Source: Aphrocallistes beatrix (taxonomy: Eukaryota; Porifera; Hexactinellida; Sceptrulophora; Aphrocallistidae). Taken from it: a stretch of 64,000 nt of DNA. This document shows, piece after piece, positions 27,540 to 56,945 of this stretch; the stretch's first letter is position 1, and the number at the start of each line of letters is the position of its first letter. The notes beneath the pieces were generated by a model. It saw only the letters and a list, made by a program, of their open reading frames with translations, had not been told where the DNA came from and did no database searches. The DNA is taken from the NCBI GenBank assembly GCA_963281255.1, contig OY725503.1:1-64000 (forward strand). The letters run 5' to 3'. The position numbers and the translations under genes are program-made.

Positions 27540-28958
27540 TTAGTCGCAGCTGGCCTGCGACTTGGTGGTTCGCATCAGTGGCTTATGGAGACGGAAACCG
27601 TCGATGGAATGGTGCCACTCCCAACAGAGACGACAGAAGTACTTGAAGCAGTTCATGTCGCGGCAGAAGAAGGGGCCCATTATCCGCCCGCAGATGTTGC
27701 AGGGGGTGTCCTCGAGGTAGGGGTCCACTTGGACCTTCTTGGCGAATTTGGAGGTTTTGATTTCGACGTAGCCCGCCTGCACCGCTTTCATGTAGTTCTT
27801 GGCGCTCACGAATGTGACACGGCCGGACCCGATTGGGTATTTGTGCCGGTCTGTGTCGATGCCGGCGTACACCACCCCGCCGAACAAGTCGTCCATTATG
27901 AGCGCCAAAGCGTCGGCGTTCAGCAGCCCGTGGAGACCACCCACAAACACGGTGGTGTTGGGATCTAGGCGGGGACTGGCGCGGTAGACGGAGTTGGAGT
28001 CGGAGAGGACCCAGGGGATGACCTGCACCTCCTTGTTCCTCATCCGCGAGGAGGAGACCTTGTAGTAGTAGTCGCCGCCCTCCGCCGCGTCCTGCGTGCA
28101 GGCCTGCAGCAGGAGCTTGACGCTCTTCTCCGAGTCGAAGATGAGGTAGGAGTAGCCCTTGGGCGGGTGGCGGTTGTGCTTGCAGTCCTTGCCGGGCCAC
28201 TCCACCTTCAGCCCGCCGAACGGCTTGAAGGTGTTGAGCAGCGTCTCCTCCGTGATGTCCCACGGGACCCCGCCCAGGAACACCTTGGTGCTGTAGACCG
28301 GGTTCCGGTACCTGCGCGGCGGCAGCTGGCCGGACCAGGTGCAGATGACCTCCGGCATCTTGAGGTACTCCTTGGGGTCCGCGCCCTGCAGCTTCTGGCG
28401 CGGGTAGAAGGGCGCCGGCTTGTCGGCGGGCTGGTAGAAGTGGTTGGGCAGGAGCGGCGGGTAGGACGGCTGCGAGGAGAAGCCCAGGCGGTGGTGCGCC
28501 GTGGGGGACGGGTTCCTCAGCTGCGCCATCTCGAAGCTCTGGTGGATCGAGCTCAGGAAGAGCGCGCCCGGGCCCGGGCCCGGCACCGGGGACGCCGGCT
28601 GCGGCGGAAGCTCCGGCTGCCAGAACCGGTTCTCGGGCGCCGATTGGCTGAGCCAGTCGGGCGGGGACGGGTGGATGACGTCCGACACGACGGGCTCCAG
28701 GGACTCGGAGGTGTTGGAGGAACTGTCCGAGGGGTCCTTCTCCACGGACGGACTCACGACGGGCGCGGTGAGGGACTGGGTCGGCTGTAGGCTCATCTCG
28801 TTCAGGAGATGCGTCATGTCCAGCAGCTGCTTTTCATTCGATTCCGAACTGTGTCCGTTAGAGATGAAATCGGGCGGGGAATCAGAGTTTGACACCTCTG
28901 TGGGTAGCTGGGGCAAATATGAACCGAAAGGCGAACTGAGATAATTAGCGGCCTCCAT
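27540..28958 (-). CDS. CPEB1-like: CPEB1-type cytoplasmic polyadenylation element-binding protein, intronless
   Basis: A 472-residue protein. CPEB proteins bind U-rich elements in mRNA 3' UTRs and control poly(A) length and translation in germ cells and neurons. Residues 1-220 are a Pro/Ser-rich disordered region. RRM1 spans about 224-315 ([12 protein letters not shown]), RRM2 about 335-412 ([10 protein letters not shown]), and a ZZ-type zinc-binding domain about 420-460 ([24 protein letters not shown]). The CFKYFC signature and the end (LHKPLMR) point to the CPEB1/Orb branch rather than CPEB2-4. The whole gene is one exon, unlike the multi-exon genes downstream, suggesting intron loss or an old retrocopy with all domains intact. 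Large antisense frames here are shadows. Confidence 0.95.
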
Positions 28959-29080
28959 TGCGACACTGAAAAGGTGTTAGTTCCAATTTGATGTAAACGA
29001 GAAAGTTTGAGAAAAAAGTTCTAAAAAATAGCTGAAAATAGCCTAAAAACTGACTCAAGAGTGAACTACAGTCGGCGGCG

Positions 29081-44167: not shown

Positions 44168-47100
44168 CTAGCACAGCTGATCATCTTCATCATCAGAACC
44201 CACATTCCTTCTGCCTATCCTGTTGCCAGGAATGGGAGGCGCCAGGAAGTGCGTGGGGCTTGACGCGGGTTCCGGGGACTGGCACGGACTGACCGGCGTC
44301 TCTGCGGTGGGAGTGTCGCTCTTGCGCCGGAAAATACCGAAGCTCTTCCGGCGGCCTTTCTTGTCGGCGTTGGGGACCCGCGTGGCGGAGAGGAGCTCGC
44401 CGAGCGCGGTCTTGAGGAGTTTCCTGGCGGAGAGGTCGTTGAGCGGGATCTGCAGAGTGACGGCGATCTCGTGGTAGCCGTAGGAGGAGTCGAAGTAGAG
44501 GACGGCCCCGTGCAGGCCGGAGAACTCGAAGTTCATGGTGTAGCCCCCCAGCCCGATGGAGTGGAGCCACTTCCGGATCTGCTCGTTGGACCAGTAGGGC
44601 AGCTCGACCCTGTCGGACACAGACAGCGAGTGCTTCTCCTCCAGAGCGGCCCGGTCGTAGTTGAGGGAGCGGAGGACGTAGGTTCCGAACTGGAGGGAGT
44701 TCCGATGGACGCTCTCCACCATCCCAAGGCTGGTGCGCAGCTCCTTCTTGCTCAGGTGTTCCAGCACGCGACCGTCCACGCAGCACTGCCTAGAACAGCA
44801 AGCATGTCACAGACTATAAATAGCACAGACCAGTGTTTCCCGCCGAGCGCGTTAAGCGCGGTATTTAGCATGCGAAATAATGCAATTTACCCGAATAAAC
44901 CGCACAAAAATTCCAAAATTAACCCCGCCTATACCAGGAATGTGTTGCGTCATTTCCTGTTTAAGCCATTTTGGGCGGGGAAGCCATATAAATTTGGGGT
45001 CCAGACTATAAATAGAAAGACCGCAGGTAAAAGTGGCATTAACGGCTTTCCTATAATCATGAGGGAAACGCTGGCACATATCTATGCTTAGCCTCACCGG
45101 AAGTTGTTGGAGTACTGGGAGAGTCCGAGCGAGGGCAGCCAGCAGGTGGCGATCCAGTCGTGGTTGACTCCGCGGTAGGGCGAGTAGAGGCAGGGCATCC
45201 CCGCGTTGGAGAGCGCCGCTCGCTCCTGCACGGCCTTCATCAGCTTCAGACGCAGCAGCGGCTGCTGGATGGACAGCTCCATCTCGTAGTCCCGCTCAGA
45301 CATGGACAGGAGCATGGGCACCGTCCGGCACTGGTACCGGACCGCCACGCCGACGCTGTCCGGCAAACCCAGCTCCACCTCCACCCAGGCCTGCAGCGCG
45401 TCGGGCGGCCACAGCAGGAACTGCGTGTTTTCGCGCTCCACCGCCTGCAGCGACACCTCCAGGCGCGCCTGCCGCACGCCAAGCGCCTCGCGGGTGGGCG
45501 GGGGGGTCCCCGGAACCTCCCGCGGGCCCGCGCCCTTGGAGACGCGGAGGGAGCTGACGATGCGGCGCAGCGAGGACTTGCGCTTGAGGCCGCCCTTCTT
45601 GTGCGAGAGACGCAGGCTGGGGGGTCCCGGGTCGAACTCCGTCCGCTCGCGCACGCCTTCGTCCACGAGGTGCGAGCTGTCGGACACGGAAGTGGCGGTC
45701 TCGATGTCGGAGAGCGAGGACTGACTCCCGAGCAGCGCCGGGCCGACGCCGCTGAGGCTGAGCTCCGACTCCGTGGGGGACTGCTTGCGCGCGTCGTCCG
45801 TGGGCGAGCTCTTGCGGCTGTTGTCGGGCGTGGCCTCCGGGCTGTACAAGTGCGGTCTGGGGTGTCGCTGCGACCAGGAGTGGCTGATTTTGGGCGCCAG
45901 ACCCTCTTCCTGCTCCACGGAGACCGGCGCGGTGGTCGCGGACATGCGCTTCATCTCGGTGATCATGTTGTTCAGCGACTGGCGCTGAGTGCGCCTTTGG
46001 CGCCTAGAGCCGCGCTTCTGATTGGCCGTCAGGTTGTCCTGTAGCAGCTGCTTCAGCTCCATCCGATCCCGCTCCACCTGCGACAGCTTGGAGATGGTTC
46101 CGCGGAGGCTGGACCGGACCACCTGGTCAGCTTCCGCCGACTGCAGCAGCTGTTCCCTCATCGCCTGCAGCTCCATCTCCTGCGCCGCCACTCTGTCCCT
46201 CAGCTCTGCCACTTCAGTGTGCTGAGGAACAAACAGCTGTTCGACCGGTTGCTCCTCAATGATGGGTTCCGGGTCTCTGGTCAGCTGATCTTCTCTGCCA
46301 TTCACTTGTGTGTCGCTGCCAGTCAGCTGATCGTCTTTCCCCGCCTTCAGCTCTGAGATGGCGCGCTCCCTCTCCTCCAGTTTGTCCTGGAGCTCGAGAC
46401 AGCGGCGGTTTGCGTCCTGGGTCAGCTCTGCCAGCTCCAGCTGCAGCCGTCCCAGCTGCTTCTCTTGTCTGTCCAGGGCGCGCTCTTTGTTCGTCAGAAG
46501 CGCGTACAGCTCTTTCTGCTTCTTCGCCGCCTCACTCGTCTTCATCGTCTCCAGCTCGAGTCCGTTTCTAAACAACAAAACAACAACAAAGGTAAACACA
46601 AACAAACATTGGCTAGCGTCTAAGAACCCCAGTACTGACCTAGCCCTGGCCAGCTCCTGATTGGACAGTTCCAGCTGAGACAGCTGGTCCTCGCTCACGG
46701 CTCTTAACTCGTCCAACTCAAACTCCAGCTCTCCTTCCCTCTGCAGCAGCTGCGACAGCTTCTCTCCTTCCACGGAGTGCTTCAGTCCCAGCTGACTCAG
46801 CTCGCGCTGTGTCAGCGTCTCAGTCAGCTGATCTTCCAGCTCCTTCGTCCTCGCCACTTGCTGCTTCAGTTTGTCCTTCACGCGGTCCAGCGTCTTGTGA
46901 TGGTCGAAGAGACACTTCAGCGCCTTCAACACCTCCACCTGCACCGTTAGAAATAGAGCTATTAACAGCATTCCACAGAGGATGAACCTAGCAACCGCTC
47001 ATGAGAGCTCAGTGCTAGCGGACCAAGGATCTCACCTCGGAGGAGACGCCGTTCTGTGCGGTCTGGCGCTTCACGACGGTGGAGCGCAGGGAGCGCTCGT

Positions 47101-49020
47101 GGCGCGCTACCAGTCGCTCCAGGTGCTCCAGCAGGATCCGCGTGTTGGCGCGCTCGCTGAGCAGCTCCCGCACCTGGTCGTCCCGCTCGGACACGATGTC
47201 CCTCTGTCCGTACAGCTCCGCCTGCACCTGCAGGAAGTCCTCCCAGAAGCGGCGCGCCTGCGGACTCACGCCGGAGAGCTCGCTCTCGGGGCGCGTCCGC
47301 ATCCCCTCCAGCTCCTCCAGCTGCTGCTCCGTCAGCGCCGGCGTCAGCTGGCTCAGCTGCGCCACGAGGATGTCCCGCTCGCGCGCGCAGGCGCCGAGGT
47401 CCTGCTCCAGGTAGCGCGCGTTGTCCTCTCTCTCCGCCAGCTGCTCCTGCAGCCGCTCCTTCTGGTCCCGCAGCGTTATCAGCACCTACGCACATTCCTT
47501 GTTTGATAATGGTTGCTAGGCTACTTAGATACTTAGTCGCTGGAATTAGATGCGAACTGCTGAGATAGCGCACAGGAGTTAGTGAGTGGGATGGTTTAGA
47601 TATGCAAAGCTCGGCCGCTGACAACGCAATTGTTTAAGCGGGGAAATCAATATATTCTTCACGCGGGAGAATAGCGTTGAAAGCTAATCTGGATTTATTT
47701 CTAATTGAAACTAATTTGCTGACATCAATTATGCTTCTTCCAATAATATGAGAGGGCAGTTATTACGGATTTACAATTCAAATTCACCCTTGAATACCTC
47801 GTAGCATCACATGCACAGCAGAATGGAAGAAGTGCTAATCAGGATGTGAGCTAATCTCCCAACTAACTAATTAAGAGCAGGTGACCAATAAGAGGAGGCG
47901 CTGCCGCACTCACGATGGCGAATCAGTTTGGAGAGAGCTTAGGGACAGTTCTATTAACAATTCTCCCGCCTAATTCAGGGCTGCACCAGAAATTAGTCTG
48001 TTCAGATTACCGCTAATTAATGCTAGCCAAATCACGCGGGGATTTGCAGTGACATATTGCGTAATATGCAACGCTAATATCAGCGAATAGGTTTCTAGCA
48101 TTTCACTGTTATCAAAACAACACAAATTACATTTGGTATTCCTGTGTGGCTTCTCGGAGATTTGTGTCAGCGTAATTCTATACACCGCCACTCTATGCAG
48201 TAATGCGATATTGCAGATTGAATCAAATCCTACAACACAGCTCAGTTTCTGGAACAAAGCACGGAACGGAATTCATTTTCGATAAAGATTGCAGGGTGCA
48301 AGGAAATTGCGGCATCTCAGTCGTAAATGCTTATGCAACTCGCGAGCTCAGATAGGAAACGTTTGCAGTTAAATCAAACGACGGCAAACTTCCGAGCTAC
48401 AGAAGCTAATTCCTCCAGGACGTTAAGACGGCACGGGTCACCTTATCTACCACAATGATATCCTGGCAACCTAAACCATTGATAGGAATTTCGGAGTCAT
48501 AATAACCACCTACTCCCCGTCTACGATTAAACATTCTTATCTCACACCAGGTTGTTAGGATTCTTATCTTCCAATCAATTGAAGTTTTCAGGAATATTTT
48601 TGTTTCAAAGATTTGTGTTTGAACGCTAAATCTTGCAGATTTGTTCAAAGTTAACTTCAAACGATTCTGTGAGAAACCAATGAGACGAAATTACGTGTTT
48701 CATCAGCAGAAAAGTGTGGTAAACGTGCGAACAGAAATAAACAGTAAACAAGGACAGACCTGTTCCATGTAGTGAGAGTCTGCGGAAGAGAACTCGAGTC
48801 CCGAAAGCCCGCCCGGCTCCCACACCGTGTCCAGCTCTTCGTAGGAGGGCCCCAGGGGCGTGAGGACGGGGGAGGGGGAAGCGGCGACGTCCGATCGCTG
48901 GGGGGACAGGTGGAGTGCGTCCGGTTTCTTCCTCTCCAGCTTGACAGGGGGCGGCGTGAGGGCCCCGAATCGTGGGGGGTCTGTAAGTGTGGGGGATGGG
49001 GAATCGCTTGAATCTGACAT
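44168..49020 (-). CDS. PPFIA: Liprin-alpha
   Basis: Five exons (49020-48760, 47485-47036, 46938-46640, 46567-45098, 44789-44168; phases consistent) encode 1033 residues. Liprin-alpha is a cytoplasmic scaffold for LAR-type phosphatases and presynaptic or cell-contact proteins. Residues 88-500 are coiled coil and include the family blocks [17 protein letters not shown] and VVKRQ, then [15 protein letters not shown] across the exon 2-3 join. Three SAM domains follow: about 723-790 ([10 protein letters not shown]), about 800-870 ([10 protein letters not shown] then [10 protein letters not shown]) and about 885-955 ([10 protein letters not shown]). The protein ends DDQLC; vertebrate liprin-alphas also end in Cys as part of a PDZ ligand. 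A TATA box lies at 49053-49060. The gene is slightly shorter than vertebrate forms. Antisense ORFs are shadows. Confidence 0.96.
44935..45017 (+). repeat. Repeat E in the last liprin intron
   Basis: The segment with CATTTTGGGCGGGGAAGCCA, then GTTTGGG-like sequence and CTATAAATAG, recurs at 57840-57927 beside the dynein fragments. It therefore belongs to a small dispersed family. Confidence 0.7.
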
Positions 49021-49052
49021 AACACTATTTCAATGCAAAGCTGCAAGCCGAG

Positions 49053-49160: not shown

Positions 49161-52100
49161 TCAGGGGGCGGGCTTGGCGGTGGGGGCGTAGTGGTACTGA
49201 GCCTTCACGGTGTAGAACTCCGTCCCGGTCCTTCCCGCCGGGTACTCGCACACGTGCCGAGCCACTTCCTTCACCGGATTCTCCGTGGCTTGTCCTAAAT
49301 AAATAAATCAATAAATAACCATAGCCTGGGCATGCCTAATTTACGGGACGGGACGAGTTAAGATGCCTAATTTACGGGACGGGACGGGATGCCGTCCCGT
49401 CCCGTAAATTAGGCATGCCCCCATAGCCTAGCATGTAAGGCCTCACAGTAGCTTGTGGATTTTGGACTAGGGATGCGGTAGAAGATGGTTGAACTAATAC
49501 ATGAGCTGCCTTAACCCGAGGATTACTTGGGGTCAAAGGTATAAATAGAAATGACCCAGCTTTCACTTTCATTTTCAGTTTACTTTCAATTAACTTTCAC
49601 TTTCAATTCAACATTCCTGGACGTGCTCGGGTTAAATCATTAACAAAGCGCATATAGATATGGTGTCAAAGTAGTATATGATTGCGCAATGGGTTATATT
49701 TGTGACATATTAGTGTTTTCAGAGGCCTTTTAAGGCATGTTGCATGAAATTCTGAGACATTCGCTTAGAAGCCTTAGCAAGCTCTGATCTAATATTAAGC
49801 AACTTGCAGTTCCTATTGCAGAATGATATTTCACAAAACACGATTATTTTGTTCTATTTTGTAGCTATTAACACTTAACTCAATCATGTATACGGTGATC
49901 CTATAAATAGAACCAAATCATCGTGTTCTGTGAAATATCATTCTGCAATAGGAACTATAGTTGCATAATATTAGATCAGAACTTGCTAAGGCTTCTAAGC
50001 GAATGTTTCAGAATTTCACACAAGTTGTATATCCATGGTTCCTTTTATATAAGTGCCTCAGAATTTCACGCAACAGGGCACTTCTAAGTGTTTTTATGGT
50101 AACATTTTTAGTATAAAACTGAGATGTGAATGGGTTAACTAAATAACGAAAAATTTGGAATTTTTCATGGAATGTTTCTACATTCCAGTGTTGCTATAGA
50201 AACGTGTTTGGTCAGTTAGGGTCATGTCTTGAAACCACAAGAGCTAGACATTCAAATGTAATTCCATTTGATAGCGAATAGACTATTTCTTATTAAGTGA
50301 TAATATAATTTATTTGTCTAAATTCAATGGTTTACGAATTATTAGACAATTTATCAGTCACATTTGTTAATTGGTTGAATATCTCATAAACCATTGAATT
50401 TAGACGTCGAAATAATATTATCGCTTAATAGGAAATAGTATATTCGTTATCAAATGGAATCATGTTTGAATATTTAATTCTTGTGGTTTTCAAGATATGA
50501 CCCCAACTGACCAAAACACGTTTCCATAGCAACACTGTAATGTAGAAACATTCCATGAAATAATTCCAAATTTTTAGTATTAAGGCAGCCCATGTATTAG
50601 TTCAACCATCTTCTACCGCATCCCTAGTCCAAAATCCACAAGTTACTGTGAGGCCTTATATGCAGAGGCCATGAAATAACATGCATGCCAACTTGAGCCA
50701 TGGTAAAGCGGAACGCAATAAAAATTATTATATAAGGAATTTTAAAAAACATAATGGTAAATTCCATGTAAAAGCGGGACACTCGTGAAAATTAGCTCAA
50801 CAGAAGAGTTGGCATGCGTGAAACAAATAAACGAAGAGAGCAGAGCTAGTGACAGGTGGCACAAGTGGCACAGGTGGAGGAGCGTACCGAGGAGCCAGGT
50901 GCCCAGGGACTGGTCCTCTCTGAGTTTGAACTGCGGGTAGCAGGCTCTGTCCAGGAAGTACTGCTTGTTGTCGATGCAGAACGCCTTCGGGACTCCCTTG
51001 AAGGGCCCGAGCGGCTTCGTCGGGAGGAACAGCACGAAGTCTCCCTTCTTGAACCCCGCCACGCTGACGCGAGAGGACATGGGGTCTTTGTTCTCGTCCG
51101 TCTGCAGACGGCGCCCAAACTCCATCTTCAGCTGCTCCAGCGATTGGGTGTGACATCTGCGAGAATAAACAAAAATAAACAAACAAAGTAGGATTATAAA
51201 CAAGTTTGAAAACATTTAAGAGTTCACATTCCATCCAAGCAAATCTATTCGTGGGTTTATTAACTGATTTGCTATATAAGCATGAAACTCTCTGCGCCAA
51301 TGATCTAACAGGGATGAAGCAGGGCGCCGTTTTCAGATTACGCGCCTAGCTCACCTGGAGAGACTGTGGCAGAGTTCGCGACACGCGGTTTCCAGGTTTG
51401 GGTCACTCCAGTCAGCTGGCAGCTGCAGATCAGCTGTCTCGTCATTTGGCGCCTGAACGCCTAACTCTCCTCGCAGCCACTCTAGACAACTGGCGCACTC
51501 CGACACCTACGAAAGCTCACGTAAGGCAGTGGCTCCCAACCTCTTTTACCTCGTGCACCCCCTGACACCTAAAAATTATTTTGTGCACCCCAGGACCCAC
51601 CTAAGTCTGAAAAACTCTATTGATCCGACTTGTCGTTGCAATAAGGACGACTAATAATAAGGACGAATCCTTGTCCCGTGCACCCCCGACTAAGGACCCG
51701 TGCACCCCTAGGGGGTTCATGCACCCCAGTTTGGGAACCGCTGTTGTAAGGGAATTTCGGACTATAATGATTGGGAAGGAGAACCTTGGCATTGGCGGAG
51801 ACCAGCACTCCCTGCAGGATTGGAGTGTCTGTGGGTTGAGCTCTCAGCTGATCTCTCAGCTGATTCAGCTCCGCTTCTTGGCGCCCTTTCAGCTCCAGGA
51901 GTTGTGTCTGCTCGCGTTCCAACTCCGCCACTTTCGAGTGCCAGCGCTGCGAGTCTGCACTGCCCTCACTCTGCCCCTCCTGTCCAGCTGCCAGCTGATT
52001 GGCCGGCGCTCCTGGGGACTGGAGGATCCCGAGCAGGGTCTCCTGGAGTTTGGCGCCTAGAGTTTGCAATTTTGGCGCGTGCGTTTCCTAAAACAGATCC

Positions 52101-54807
52101 GTTATAACTAATTGGACCATGGACCATGGATACTATGCGTCATACCTGGATCTGCTTGTGTAGGCTGGCGAGGGAGGTCTGAGTGGCGGCGAACTGGGAG
52201 AGGCCGGCGTGCGTGCTGTTGAGGCGGTAGTGGATCTTGGAGGTGAGCTCCTGGTGCTTCAGCTCCACCGACACCTTCAGCGCGCCCACTCGAGTCAGCT
52301 GATCCTGCACGCCGAGCTTCCGCATTCCACGGGAATCACTCAGCAACGGCCTGCGGGGAAGGAATGTCAGGAATGTGTCGGGATGGAGAGCGGGGGTGTC
52401 GCTACCTGACAATTTCCCGGACGGAGATGATCTGCGCGCGCTCGATGTCCGACTTGATGGCTTTGTGGCGCAGGAACACTTCGGTGTCCACCTCCGACAC
52501 CTCTTGCTCCAGCCGCGCCCTCAGCTCTTCCAGCTCCTGCACTGAGCGCCGGAACCCCTCGGCCTCCTTCGCGTGGGGTCCGGGCGCCAGGACGCGCGCG
52601 AAGGCCTCCAGCTGCTGCTTGAGGGCGGCGAGCCCCGCGCAGAATGGCGCGTAATCTTCGTTGAACTTTACCCGCGTCGCCTTGTGCCGCTCTCGCGACC
52701 TCAGCGCGAACTGCACGTACGCGCCGAGTCCGGACCCCTACAGACAATCCCCGTCAACGCCACTTTGCCACTCCGCCACTAAGTGGCTCAAGTGGCACAG
52801 AAGGCCACTGACCTGAGACTCGCCCATCATCTCGATGTCCTTCACCAGCTTGGTGCACATCTGTGGGAGGAAGCCGGCGTTGTCGCGCGTGCGGACCTCT
52901 TCGATGGCCTCTTTGTCCGCCAGGAAGCTGTCCAGCTCCTGGTAGGGGAGCCGGGGTACGGCCGGGGGCTCGATCTGCTGGAGAGAGGATTGGTCGAGGA
53001 TGAAGAGCTTCGGGTCCTGCCCCGACCCGGCGAAGTGTTGCGACTGAGAGAAACTGCAGAATGCCTACAACGCCATGCCGTTTAGATAGATGTTCAAACA
53101 ACTGTTCAATCAGCTGTTCGATCAGCTTTCACTCACGTCTAGCTGCTGCTGCTGCGAGATGACGGAGTCGAGTTGAGCGTTGTCGCGGAGAATAATCTGG
53201 TTCCCCGCCTGAATCCCGAAGTCGGCCGCCACCTGCTTCTGCAGCTCGGACAGAGTCAGCTGTTTGTCTCCGTACGGGACTTTGCTCTCCAGACCCGAGT
53301 GCACCGACACCAGCCGGATCTTGGTCTGCACCAGGTCGTCCACCTCCTGAAACACGCAGTCACACGTGGACCATGGATTATGCCACCTCAACTCAATGGC
53401 AGAATCTGCCAGGACTTGCTAGGAGAATGAGCGGGGATTCTGATCTATAATTAGACGCACCTGGAAGAAGGAGGCATAGGTGATGCGGAGGCTGGGCTCC
53501 ACGCGGAGGCACTCCTTGATGAGCCACGTCATCTTGTCCTTGAAGACAGGCGTCAAGGTGTCGTCCACTTCCGCCGGAAGCTCTCGGATGTACTGCGTGC
53601 GTCTCTGCTGCCGCGAGAACGCGATGGCGTCTCCTACACGCGAATGTGGGAGATTATAAAATCTCCAAACCAGGAACTCAACAGCATAGCAACGCACCCT
53701 TCTTCTGAAGAATGTTGAGGATGTCCTGGATGGGCGCGAAGAAGCCGCACTTGCCGACGAGCACGCGGTACAGCAGAGCGCCCACGGACCAGATGTCGAC
53801 TGAGTGGTCGTAGGAGCCGCCCGGGTACATCACGCAGTAGAGCGCCTCGGGCGCCATGAACACCGGCGTGCCGGCCAGCGACTCCATGTCCACGGGCCGC
53901 TTGTTCGTGTCGCCGTCCTTCTCCTCTTTGTAGAAGCGCGAGTAGCCGAAGTCCGCCAGGCGGATGTCCCACTCGCACCCCTGTTCCTGCCCCCTGCCCC
54001 GTCCGTCCGTCCCAGGGAACTTGAGCAGGATGTTCTGGGGCTTCAGGTCTCTGTGCACGATGCTCAGGTCGTGCATGGCCTTCACTCCCACGCTCAGCTG
54101 CTTCAAGAACCTACAACAGTAAGCAATAGTAATAAATAGTCATAAATAGTAATAAATAGTAGTAATAGTAAATAGTAATAGTAAATAATAGTAAATAGCA
54201 GTAAATAACAGTAAATAACAGTAGAATATGAATAAGTAACAGTAGGACAAGTAACGCTAGGATAGGAGGATACCTTCTGAACTGCGGCTCTGTGATCTGA
54301 TTCTTTTTGAGATATTCCTCCAAATCGCAATCGCAGAGTTCCATGACGAGGAGCATCCCGACACCTCTCTGCTCCTCCACCTGCATCAGTCGGACCACAA
54401 ACTCACACCGCATCAGCGCCTAACGGACAGAAGTGATTAGACCTCTTACCGCACTCTAGATTCAGCCAATCAGATGGCGAGTTAGCTGTTGTTGACTGAT
54501 ACTTATACTCGCGAATGTAACGAATTAATGAAATAATGATTCTGGTCCATACCTGCATTATATCAATTTCTCGCTTCAAGTTTATGTACACTTTCTTCTC
54601 TTTCTTATAGAAGTCTTCCTTGACAACCTTCACGGCGACTTGGTATGAGTCAGGCTCATTGTAGCCGAGAAAGACCTCTCCAAACGCGCCCTTTCCGAGG
54701 CGGGTGCCGGTGTTCTGGTGCCAGAAATAGTCTCCGGTCTGGTGGAACTCGTGCGGAGTTTGCCGGTGCATCTCCTTCAACGCCAAAAGATGCACCTTTT
54801 TACTCAT
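49161..54807 (-). CDS. ULK/Atg1-like kinase fused to a FIP200/ATG11-type scaffold
   Basis: Twelve exons, 947 residues: 54807-54553, 54419-54274, 54110-53698, 53633-53461, 53346-53137, 53064-52813, 52737-52406, 52350-52146, 52087-51785, 51506-51355, 51156-50888, 49294-49161. All phases match. Residues 30-328 are a complete kinase: GKGAFG 38-43, VAVK Lys60, Glu80, HRDLKPQNILL 153-163, DFG 187-189, APE 220-222. The style is ULK/Atg1 or TBK1. Residues 335-425 are a ubiquitin-like fold whose end (FAGSGQDPKLFILDQ) resembles the FIP200 N-terminus. A helical or coiled part follows (430-830). The last 105 residues match the FIP200/ATG11 Claw: GFKKGDFVLFLP, QYFLD, GTWLLG, GTEFYTVKA. FIP200 normally scaffolds ULK1, ATG13 and ATG101 to start autophagy; here kinase and scaffold would be one protein. 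Confidence 0.88.
49328..49421. mobile_element. 94-bp miniature foldback element with 8-bp target duplication
   Basis: GGGCATGCCTAATTTACGGG begins a palindrome ending in its complement, with the left arm duplicated inside. It is flanked by identical 8-mers CATAGCCT at 49320-49327 and 49422-49429. It lies in the last intron of the kinase-scaffold gene. The 8-bp duplication fits hAT-type insertion. Confidence 0.85.
49436..50658. mobile_element. 1.2-kb nested foldback element
   Basis: Outer inverted arms of about 78 bp start TAAGGCCTCACAGTAGCTTG and end with the complement. Inside lie two independent long hairpins: 49740-49855 pairing with 49915-50020, and 50160-50335 pairing with about 50380-50572. 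A TA could be the target duplication. No ORF. The element fills most of the 1.6-kb last intron of the kinase-scaffold gene. Confidence 0.88.
51527..51743. mobile_element. hAT-like MITE in intron 9 of the kinase-scaffold gene
   Basis: Inverted ends CAGTGGCTCCCAACC and GGGAACCGCTG, 217 bp long. The flanks ACGTAAGG and TTGTAAGG share six of eight bases, in keeping with an 8-bp target duplication. The ends are the classic hAT/Charlie MITE type. Confidence 0.75.
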
Positions 54808-55763: not shown

Positions 55764-56060
55764 GCTAGTAATAGATTCTTAAAGTATATTCTGCATGATT
55801 CACGATTCTAGGCTAATTATGATTTTTTTCAAACGGCTACTACTTCATCCCTAGTCCATAATTTTACTCTACTGTAAACATTATATTGACTAAGCTATGG
55901 TATAATGTATGGATACACTTTCGTTTGATTCAGATTGATCTTACATACGATCTAACCGACTAATTTAACTTTGAGAAACAGGACACCATAGACTATATAT
56001 AATTTAATGTAATGTAATGTAATATTAATGTATATAAATTAAATTAAAATAAATTAAATT

Positions 56061-56624
56061 GGGGAGAGGAGGAGGCGTAGGAGGAGGAGGCGGAGGAGGC
56101 GGAGGAGGAGGCGGAGGAGGCGGAGGAGGAGGCGGAGGAGGAGGCGGAGGAGGAGGAGGAGGCGGAGGAGGAGGCGGAGGAGGCGGAGGAGGCGGAGGAG
56201 GAGGCGGAGGAGGAGGAGGAGGAGGCGGAGGAGGCGGAGGAGGCGGAGGAGGCGGAGGAGGCGGAGGAGGCGGAGGAGGCGGAGGAGGCGGAGGAGGCGG
56301 AGGAGGCGGAGGAGGCGGAGGAGGCGGAGGAGGCGGAGGAGGCGGAGGAGGCGGAGGAGGCGGAGGAGGCGGAGGAGGAGGCGGAGGAGGCGGAGGAGGC
56401 GGAGGAGGAGGCGGAGGAGGAGGCGGAGGAGGCGGAGGAGGCGGAGGAGGCGGAGGAGGCGGAGGAGGCGGAGGAGGCGGAGGAGGCGGAGGAGGCGGAG
56501 GAGGCGGAGGAGGCGGAGGAGGCGGAGGAGGCGGAGGAGGAGGCGGAGGAGGCGGAGGAGGCGGAGGAGGAGGCGGAGGAGGAGGCGGAGGAGGCGGAGG
56601 AGGCGGAGGAGGCGGAGGAGGCGA
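56061..56624. repeat. GGAGGC/GGAGGA microsatellite, about 560 bp
   Basis: A pure G-rich triplet array on the + strand. Its three-base period leaves all frames open as poly-Gly, poly-Pro or Ala/Ser, so the 200-residue frames on both strands are artefacts. It directly abuts a duplicated fragment of the kinase-scaffold gene. G-quadruplex or triplex formation is likely. Confidence 0.97.
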
Positions 56625-56655
56625 GGTTAAGATACCTTTTCCCCGCATCGGCTTC

Positions 56656-56945
56656 CCTCGCTATTCTTTTTGAGATATTCTTCCAAATCGCAATCGCAGA
56701 GTTCCATGACGAGGAGCATCCCGACACCTCTCTGCTCCTCCACTTGCATCAGTCGGACCACTGACTCGCACCGCACCAGCGCCTAAAGGACAGAAGAGAT
56801 TAGGCCTCTTACCGCACTCTAGATTCAGCCAATCAGATGGCGAGTTAGCTGTTGATGACTGATACTAATACTCGCGAATGTAACGAATTAATGAAATAAT
56901 GATTCTGATCCATACCTGCTTATTCGATTTCTCGCTTCCCTGGTG
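56656..56945 (-). pseudogene. Partial duplicate of the kinase-scaffold gene
   Basis: It matches 54285-54570: most of exon 2 (ALMRCE...LEEYLKKN becomes ALVRCESVVRLMQVEE-like), the complete intron 1 including flanking words, and the last bases of exon 1. Exon 2 is cut off by the GGAGGC array and exon 1 by unrelated sequence. Few substitutions have accumulated, so the duplication is recent. It cannot encode a kinase. Confidence 0.92.

Follow-up and report, generated by a model that had tools for sequence, protein, structure and literature searches.

The first 64,000 nucleotides of contig OY725503.1 of the glass sponge Aphrocallistes beatrix (the window hereafter, which forms the start of contig C17 in our own labelling of the assembly) raise the question of whether one gene can join a protein kinase to the Claw domain of the autophagy scaffold FIP200, and to which kinases such a protein would belong. 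An initial annotation, made from the letters alone, had proposed that twelve exons encode an ULK/Atg1-like kinase followed by the ubiquitin fold of FIP200, a coiled coil and a Claw. We find a single predicted gene and a family of sponge kinases to which it belongs. This family probably represents a fourth branch of these kinases, next to ULK, TBK1 and IKK, namely, a cargo-recruited dimeric kinase with the body of TBK1/IKK and the tail of FIP200, which would have arisen by fusion of an ULK-type kinase with a FIP200-like scaffold.

Rebuilt exon by exon, the gene is predicted on the minus strand from a start codon at 54807 to a stop codon at 49161, and its 12 exons, in matching phase and separated by introns of which 11 out of 11 are GT-AG, encode 947 residues. 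The motifs HRDLKP, DFG, APE, GDFVLF, YFLD, WLLG and GTEFYTVKA are all found in the protein, the catalytic residues of the kinase are intact, and the introns between exons 4 and 5 and exons 5 and 6 measure 114 and 72 bp; in these respects the rebuild agrees with the initial annotation. Intron 11 is the sole long intron (1593 bp) and consists mostly of a fold-back element. Pfam assigns residues 34-329 to Pkinase (E 1.4e-50) and residues 830-916 to ATG11, the Claw (PF10377, 27.6 bits against a cut-off of 22), a profile check that confirms the C-terminal domain proposed earlier. The features of the locus, all on the minus strand (-), are as follows.

54553-54807 (-): exon 1, with the start codon at 54807; kinase N-lobe (gene rebuild)
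54274-54419 (-): exon 2, kinase (gene rebuild)
53698-54110 (-): exon 3, kinase, with HRDLKP, DFG, the activation loop with S211 (codon 53879-53881) and APE (rebuild and activation-loop reading)
53461-53633 (-): exon 4, end of the kinase C-lobe, to residue 329 (rebuild and Pfam)
52987-53346 (-): exon 5 and start of exon 6, ubiquitin-like domain, about residues 330-425, with the intron 53065-53136 inside (rebuild and profiles; the model of paralogue P0012 shows the fold)
51355-53064 (-): exons 6-10, scaffold helices and coiled coil, the start of exon 6 being still ubiquitin-like (rebuild; analogy with models of relatives)
53064-52813, 52737-52406, 52350-52146, 52087-51785 and 51506-51355 (-): exons 6, 7, 8, 9 and 10, respectively (gene rebuild)
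50888-51156 (-): exon 11, bulk of the Claw, which begins at about 51080 (rebuild, Pfam and Claw profiles)
49295-50887 (-): intron 11 (1593 bp), containing a fold-back element whose 84-nt arms (49431-49514 and 50580-50663) are 96% complementary (repeat comparison)
49161-49294 (-): exon 12, which completes the Claw (GTEFYTVKA) and carries the stop codon (rebuild and Claw profile)
56660-56794 (-): isolated incomplete duplicate of kinase exon 2, lying upstream of the gene; identity to the query over residues 82-126 is 84%

On comparative evidence, drawn from related proteins and from the 100.5-Mb genome that was searched, the locus is one gene. The joins of exons 3 and 4, 4 and 5, 5 and 6, and 6 and 7 are crossed by P0121, an annotated Oopsacas minuta protein of 423 residues and the closest relative among those compared (69% identity, residues 185-502), which stops short of the Claw. 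The joins of exons 9 and 10, 10 and 11, and 11 and 12 are backed by a single reading frame on contig C13 (32% over residues 754-936), and those of exons 7 and 8 and exons 8 and 9 have as their basis the splice sites and the frame, together with a weak 19% match of a copy on C16. Farther along C17, an uninterrupted open reading frame (ORF) of 779 residues (3939636-3941972, minus strand), identical to database protein P0012, has its parts ordered as in the window gene, and on C16 matches to kinase, scaffold and Claw follow one another within 3.2 kb, as matches rather than as a full exon model. The genome holds at least three copies in which kinase, scaffold and Claw follow in this order (the window gene, the 779-residue ORF and the C16 copy), and the earlier claim of one gene with kinase, ubiquitin-like fold, helices and Claw is borne out by this paralogous ORF, the Oopsacas protein and Pfam. 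On C13, a kinase half (4069484-4074000; 63% identical to the window gene over residues 139-278) lies about 70 kb from a half with coiled coil and Claw (4143700-4146100) on the same strand. The Claw piece at 4145.5 kb is most likely the end of the putative kinase gene at 4069-4074 kb, because its match to window residues 754-936 exceeds the Claw alone; two points speak against one C13 gene, namely, that the coiled coil upstream of the Claw has no match to the family scaffold profile and that receptor-like genes intervene, several of which, in the stretches read, are intronless and appear by eye to be of the seven-transmembrane type. The Claw-like sites of the genome comprise the window gene, C13, C16, the 779-residue ORF and a stray fragment on C4 (4709622-4709789), which shares 95% identity with residues 1-56 of the C13 Claw query.

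The predicted gene is not a lone oddity but belongs to a sponge-wide kinase family. A database search with residues 1-430 returned P0001-P0014 as its top 14, including proteins of Dysidea avara, Sycon ciliatum, Amphimedon, Corticium candelabrum and Oopsacas minuta, and one with an Em-type gene id that we take to be Ephydatia; beyond these, the score dropped from 232 bits: a protein carrying three kinase domains scored 197 and one of ULK type 139 bits. The four named relatives that were looked up, Amphimedon not among them, place the family in all four sponge classes, Demospongiae, Calcarea, Homoscleromorpha and Hexactinellida. With the scaffold and Claw part of the window protein as sole query, the database search returned no relatives. 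Some family records are filed under "IKK-beta-like" or "TBK1-like", the annotation of Sycon and Corticium proteins lists a kinase as well as PF10377, and the listing of ATG11 by Pfam for two family records bearing such names is already public. In the literature searched (titles and abstracts, with preprints and most subscription journals outside the search), no description was found of a fusion of this kind, with a kinase and the FIP200 Claw. The initial annotation, which knew of no described example, holds to that extent, but the gene is not singular, given the family and the copies in this genome.

With regard to the Claw, 13 family sequences were scanned for PF10377 (the window protein, P0001-P0007, P0012, P0014, P0121 and the Claws of C13 and C16). 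Four exceeded the cut-off, including the window, Sycon, Corticium and C13 Claw sequences, two fell below it and seven were unlisted, among them P0121, which ends ahead of the Claw; no Claw was detected in P0014, which is incomplete. A profile of 13 Claws matched the human FIP200 Claw (6dce letters) with a probability of 97.6% and an E of 4.4e-12, 20 shuffled targets reaching at most 0.57%. The same Claw was matched by single groups, namely, the window type (E 1.8e-8; best of 20 shuffles 0.0012), the demosponges (E 4.3e-7; 0.0063), and Sycon with Corticium (E 3.6e-6; 0.077), and the glass-sponge 779-residue type matches the window-type Claw group at E 2.2e-11.

The family kinase is ULK-like by raw similarity, its nearest solved kinases by pairwise score being ULK2 (103.6 bits) and ULK1 (98.2 bits), yet it is sister to IKK/TBK1 in trees. 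With 14 of 17 family rows, the family forms one clade (support 100/95), sister to IKK-beta and TBK1 (98/93) and next to ULK/ATG1. Without long rows (8 family rows), it joins IKK/TBK1 at 97/95, and the approximately unbiased (AU) test against a grouping of the family with animal ULK gives p 0.037; five IKK/TBK1 rows of both types (7 family rows) yield a joint clade at 97/94 and an AU p of 0.043 for the animal-ULK alternative. In a tree including the sponge's own two IKKs, its own ULK and the C16 copy (8 of 18 family rows), the family and IKK/TBK1 join at 100/97, with AU p values of 0.016 against the grouping with animal ULK and 0.048 against IKK outside. There, the seven IKK and TBK1 rows are closed at 100/99, with the sponge family as their sister and not inside. 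Support rose when the own IKKs broke the long branch, whereas a fall would be expected if long-branch attraction were the cause. The joint clade stands next to animal ULK (90/87) and branches within the ULK/ATG1 rows, as would be expected of an ULK-type origin. The ULK/Atg1-like label given initially thus describes the raw similarity but not the position in trees, where the animal-ULK grouping is disfavoured, more weakly with fewer IKK rows; the suggestion that the gene bears on the origin of TBK1 and IKK is sustained by the sister position. At the activation-loop position of IKK/TBK1 (S-x-x-G-T), Ser is present in 15 of the 15 family rows read, with GT following in 12 and GS in 3, and in five IKK/TBK1 rows, against Thr in six ULK/ATG1 rows.

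Behind the kinase, the family profile matches IKK-alpha/beta at E 9.4e-7. The fold ascribed initially to FIP200 does correspond to a ubiquitin-like domain, but one that is a better match to IKK-alpha/beta than to FIP200. Against the FIP200 ubiquitin-like domain it gives E 0.0033, in the same register as the others and with 20 shuffles at or above 0.086, but a decoy reached 0.0095. The ubiquitin-like fold is seen in the structure model of P0012, and the models of P0012 and P0007 present the order kinase, ubiquitin-like domain and long-helix scaffold. In structure searches with the two relatives' models, TBK1 chains take the first three places in each list, and the Corticium model aligns with TBK1 over 588 of 657 residues and with IKK-beta over 598 of 650. 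As these lists are filled by kinases, the non-listing of FIP200 chains is no evidence and the lists are no fold test of the Claw or scaffold alone. The window protein and nine relatives (P0001-P0007, P0012 and P0014) gave no Pfam match to ATG17_like, nor to MIT/EAT (PF12063, PF21127), the C-terminal ULK/Atg1 domain to which ATG13 binds, with profiles that are blunt in sponges: the sponge's own ULK gave none and the Corticium ULK sub-cut-off matches only. The absence of MIT/EAT was dropped as evidence because sponge ULKs themselves fail those cut-offs.

The genome also carries a separate TBK1 on C10 (two exons, 68% and 51% to the human protein), a separate ULK1/2 on C12 (49% to human ULK1) and two IKK-alpha/beta-like genes on C11. 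Since these genes are separate, the family, judged by gene content, stands beside ULK, TBK1 and IKK and does not replace them. The candidate identities of the window gene as TBK1 or as the sponge IKK were rejected on these grounds, and that as ULK on the separate ULK1/2 gene and the tree placement. No Claw was found by profile in the two own IKKs. One of these (C11:757848-758786) has a catalytic loop reading HRN, not HRD, and may be a pseudokinase. Four RHD (NF-kB-type) sites and an ATG101 match are also present; ATG13 gave no match, a negative that carries no information. The check for separate genes found the ULK, whereas a separate FIP200 was not found in searches run with PF10377, with the N-terminus and the Claw of human FIP200, with the C13 Claw and with the part of the window protein that spans scaffold and Claw; these had no positive control, so that its absence is not established; the two human queries, under the same limit, gave nothing significant.

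Compared with known systems, the family shares with TBK1/IKK-epsilon and IKK-alpha/IKK-beta the order of kinase, ubiquitin-like domain and long-helix scaffold, the activation-loop Ser, the sister position in trees and, through its relatives, structure alignment over about 430-600 residues. It differs in that the TBK1/IKK chain ends after the scaffold, whereas the sponge family adds a coiled coil and a Claw, and in a more ULK-like kinase sequence. TBK1 itself ends in an adaptor-binding end. With FIP200/RB1CC1 and Atg11, the family has in common the C-terminal Claw (Pfam ATG11), the preceding coiled coil and, by position, a ubiquitin-like domain earlier in the chain, but FIP200 has no kinase, and in the sponge proteins most of the basic receptor-binding residues of the Claw are missing; the window protein and the nine relatives scanned gave no ATG17_like match. 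ULK1/2 and Atg1 resemble it in their kinase, which is the best pairwise match, and the joint clade arises among their rows; they differ in the Thr of the activation loop and in the ULK tail, which contrasts with an IKK-like body, and ULK1/2 has its own gene in the same genome.

Similar chains were met in proteins that are apparently not from sponges. P0169 and P0170 combine an ULK-like kinase, a ubiquitin-like part (under the Pfam cut-off) and ATG17_like (53.1 and 64.2 bits against a cut-off of 43), P0030 does so with ATG17_like just below cut-off at 40.0 bits, and P0201 appears similar by eye. They share with the sponge family a kinase, ubiquitin-like part and FIP200/Atg17-like scaffold in one chain, and three non-sponge fusions also have the activation-loop Ser; they differ in that their kinases form a clade of their own (97/92), in their ends (UBA in P0169 and P0170, a zinc-finger-like stretch in P0030) and in the Claw, none being found by profile in the five non-sponge fusion proteins tested. 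By profile, the scaffold of the sponge family has no match in P0169 and P0201. In other respects, P0190 (1332 residues), a kinase with a long coiled coil on a long branch, groups with IKK/TBK1 and the sponge family, which join at 98/96 in the tree that includes it; its C-terminus had been suspected to be a Claw, which is not supported, no Claw being detectable by profile.

The reading that we favour starts from the domain content and order, the catalytic residues, the breadth of the family and the predicted body fold in two relatives. Dimerisation would be expected from the likeness to TBK1/IKK and from the dimerisation of Atg1 by Atg11: in fission yeast, this is reported to be the main role of Atg11, which artificial dimerisation can bypass (PMC7511232). 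In the proposed mechanism, the scaffold and coiled coil would keep the kinase dimeric, the Claw would bind a short motif on a receptor marking cargo or membrane, and clustering at the receptor would lead to phosphorylation of S211 in the activation loop, switching the kinase on in place. Recruitment, the task of FIP200, and signalling, that of TBK1/ULK, would be combined within a single chain, and the receptor alone would suffice to concentrate and activate a kinase with its own dimerising scaffold and Claw. The ligand of the Claw and the use of the kinase in autophagy are predicted functions. By descent, an ULK-type kinase would have fused to a FIP200-like scaffold in an event that also gave IKK/TBK1, which would later have lost the Claw. 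From structure, Shi et al. (2020) proposed that TBK1 is a chimera of a kinase and the FIP200 N-terminal domain, which resembles the body of TBK1, and that FIP200 joins an Atg11-like end to a TBK1-like front (PMC7337493). The sponge family suggests that TBK1/IKK may have originated by fusion of an autophagy kinase to its scaffold. That the ancestor of all IKK/TBK1 survives in this family, as an ULK kinase with a whole FIP200-like scaffold and the Claw retained, is proposed tentatively, as a serious possibility that falls somewhat short of probable.

Several results weigh against the fourth-branch reading and the descent attached to it. In the tree without long rows, the AU test against IKK outside the family and ULK/ATG1 gives only p 0.166; with 7 family rows, TBK1-type rows alone lower the joint clade to 90/84 and leave the animal-ULK alternative at AU 0.133, and IKK-alpha/beta rows alone give 96/89 and 0.080. 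The post-kinase profile reaches TBK1 and IKK-epsilon only at E 0.036 and has no match to the sponge's own two IKKs (E 0.12 and 0.71), the decoy at 0.0095 leaves the FIP200 (0.0033) and TBK1 (0.017) values weak alone, and the helical scaffold alone gives no significant sequence match to IKK or TBK1 (E 0.37; 0.29 and 0.49). Whole-body structure alignments have root-mean-square deviations of 10-20 A (7.5 A over 381 residues for 4im0), and the Claw region is of low confidence in the Corticium model. The glass-sponge 779-residue Claw alone is near noise against human FIP200 (E 0.0017; best shuffle 0.006), and Ephydatia P0002, as a gene model, has no Claw by Pfam or profile. Human FIP200 requires N1517, R1573, F1574 and R1584 for p62 binding (PMC6477179); in the sponges, N1517 is kept in 0 of 13 rows, the position of R1573 is basic in 1 of 9 aligned rows (E in the window protein) and that of R1584 in 2 of 13 (T in the window protein), and the sole pocket residue generally kept is the aromatic at 1574 (8 of 9 aligned rows). 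As read from the alignment, the Claw fold is present and its phosphate-binding clamp mostly absent; the pocket being changed, the sponge Claw may bind another ligand than human FIP200 does. Finally, the non-sponge fusions lie in another kinase clade, and the joining of kinase and scaffold in the autophagy pathway may therefore not be a single event but have occurred more than once, which weakens a single-origin story.

Independent gain, in which a sponge-stem IKK-like kinase took its Claw from FIP200 by exon capture and would be uninformative on the origin of TBK1/IKK, is somewhat unlikely but keeps appreciable weight. The Claw was found only in sponge members, with none detected by profile in the five non-sponge fusions tested or in the sponge's own two IKKs; however, the family is sister to IKK/TBK1 and not inside it, and both FIP200 ends, ubiquitin-like domain and Claw, occur in the right order, for which one fusion is simplest. 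An immune IKK-type kinase of the NF-kB or IRF pathway, its Claw being an adaptor- or dimer-forming end with no autophagy role, would agree with the IKK-beta-like database names, the IKK-like activation loop, the RHD sites and the non-conserved receptor pocket; we judge it unlikely, as the genome has canonical IKK-like and TBK1 genes besides and the Claw is, apart from this family, known as a feature of autophagy scaffolds. It is decidedly doubtful that the gene is the sponge autophagy-initiation kinase in one piece, an ULK/Atg1 kinase fused to FIP200 and replacing it. The ULK2/ULK1 similarity, the failure to find a separate FIP200 and the ATG101 match point that way, but ULK1/2 is a separate gene, the tree and activation loop favour IKK/TBK1, the FIP200 searches had no positive control, and no MIT/EAT match occurs in the family, although sponge ULKs miss those cut-offs too. 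The initial proposal that one protein combines the multi-subunit initiation complex is unproven, given the separate ULK1/2 and TBK1 and a phospho-receptor pocket that is mostly not conserved. An artefact joining side-by-side kinase and Claw genes is scarcely credible and was rejected: the 12-exon model is a prediction, but the single-ORF paralogue and annotated Sycon and Corticium proteins carry both domains and the Oopsacas protein spans four exon joins.

Around the gene, the partial copy of exon 2 (56641-56794) adjoins a long GGA/GGC microsatellite at 56050-56620. The fold-back element of intron 11 (49431-50663) looks like a mobile element of the A. beatrix genome; end sequence resembling its own was seen by eye downstream of the C13 Claw (L001 3121-3285). 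The downstream neighbour (44168-49029, minus strand), which we take to be liprin-like from its coiled coil and SAM, seems to start only about 140 bp past the stop codon of the kinase gene, and farther downstream lies what is presumably a CPEB-like RNA-binding gene (27540-28976, minus strand).

In the terms of Shi et al., the sponge family would be the proposed chimera with the FIP200 tail still on, and it branches beside IKK/TBK1, as their hypothesis requires. If the ancestral reading is true, the innate-immune kinases TBK1 and IKK would be autophagy-initiation machines minus their cargo-binding end. An autophagy-first origin of innate-immune kinases thereby becomes testable in living animals, and the sponges would provide a natural single-chain kinase-scaffold for asking how cargo switches on TBK1/ULK-type kinases.

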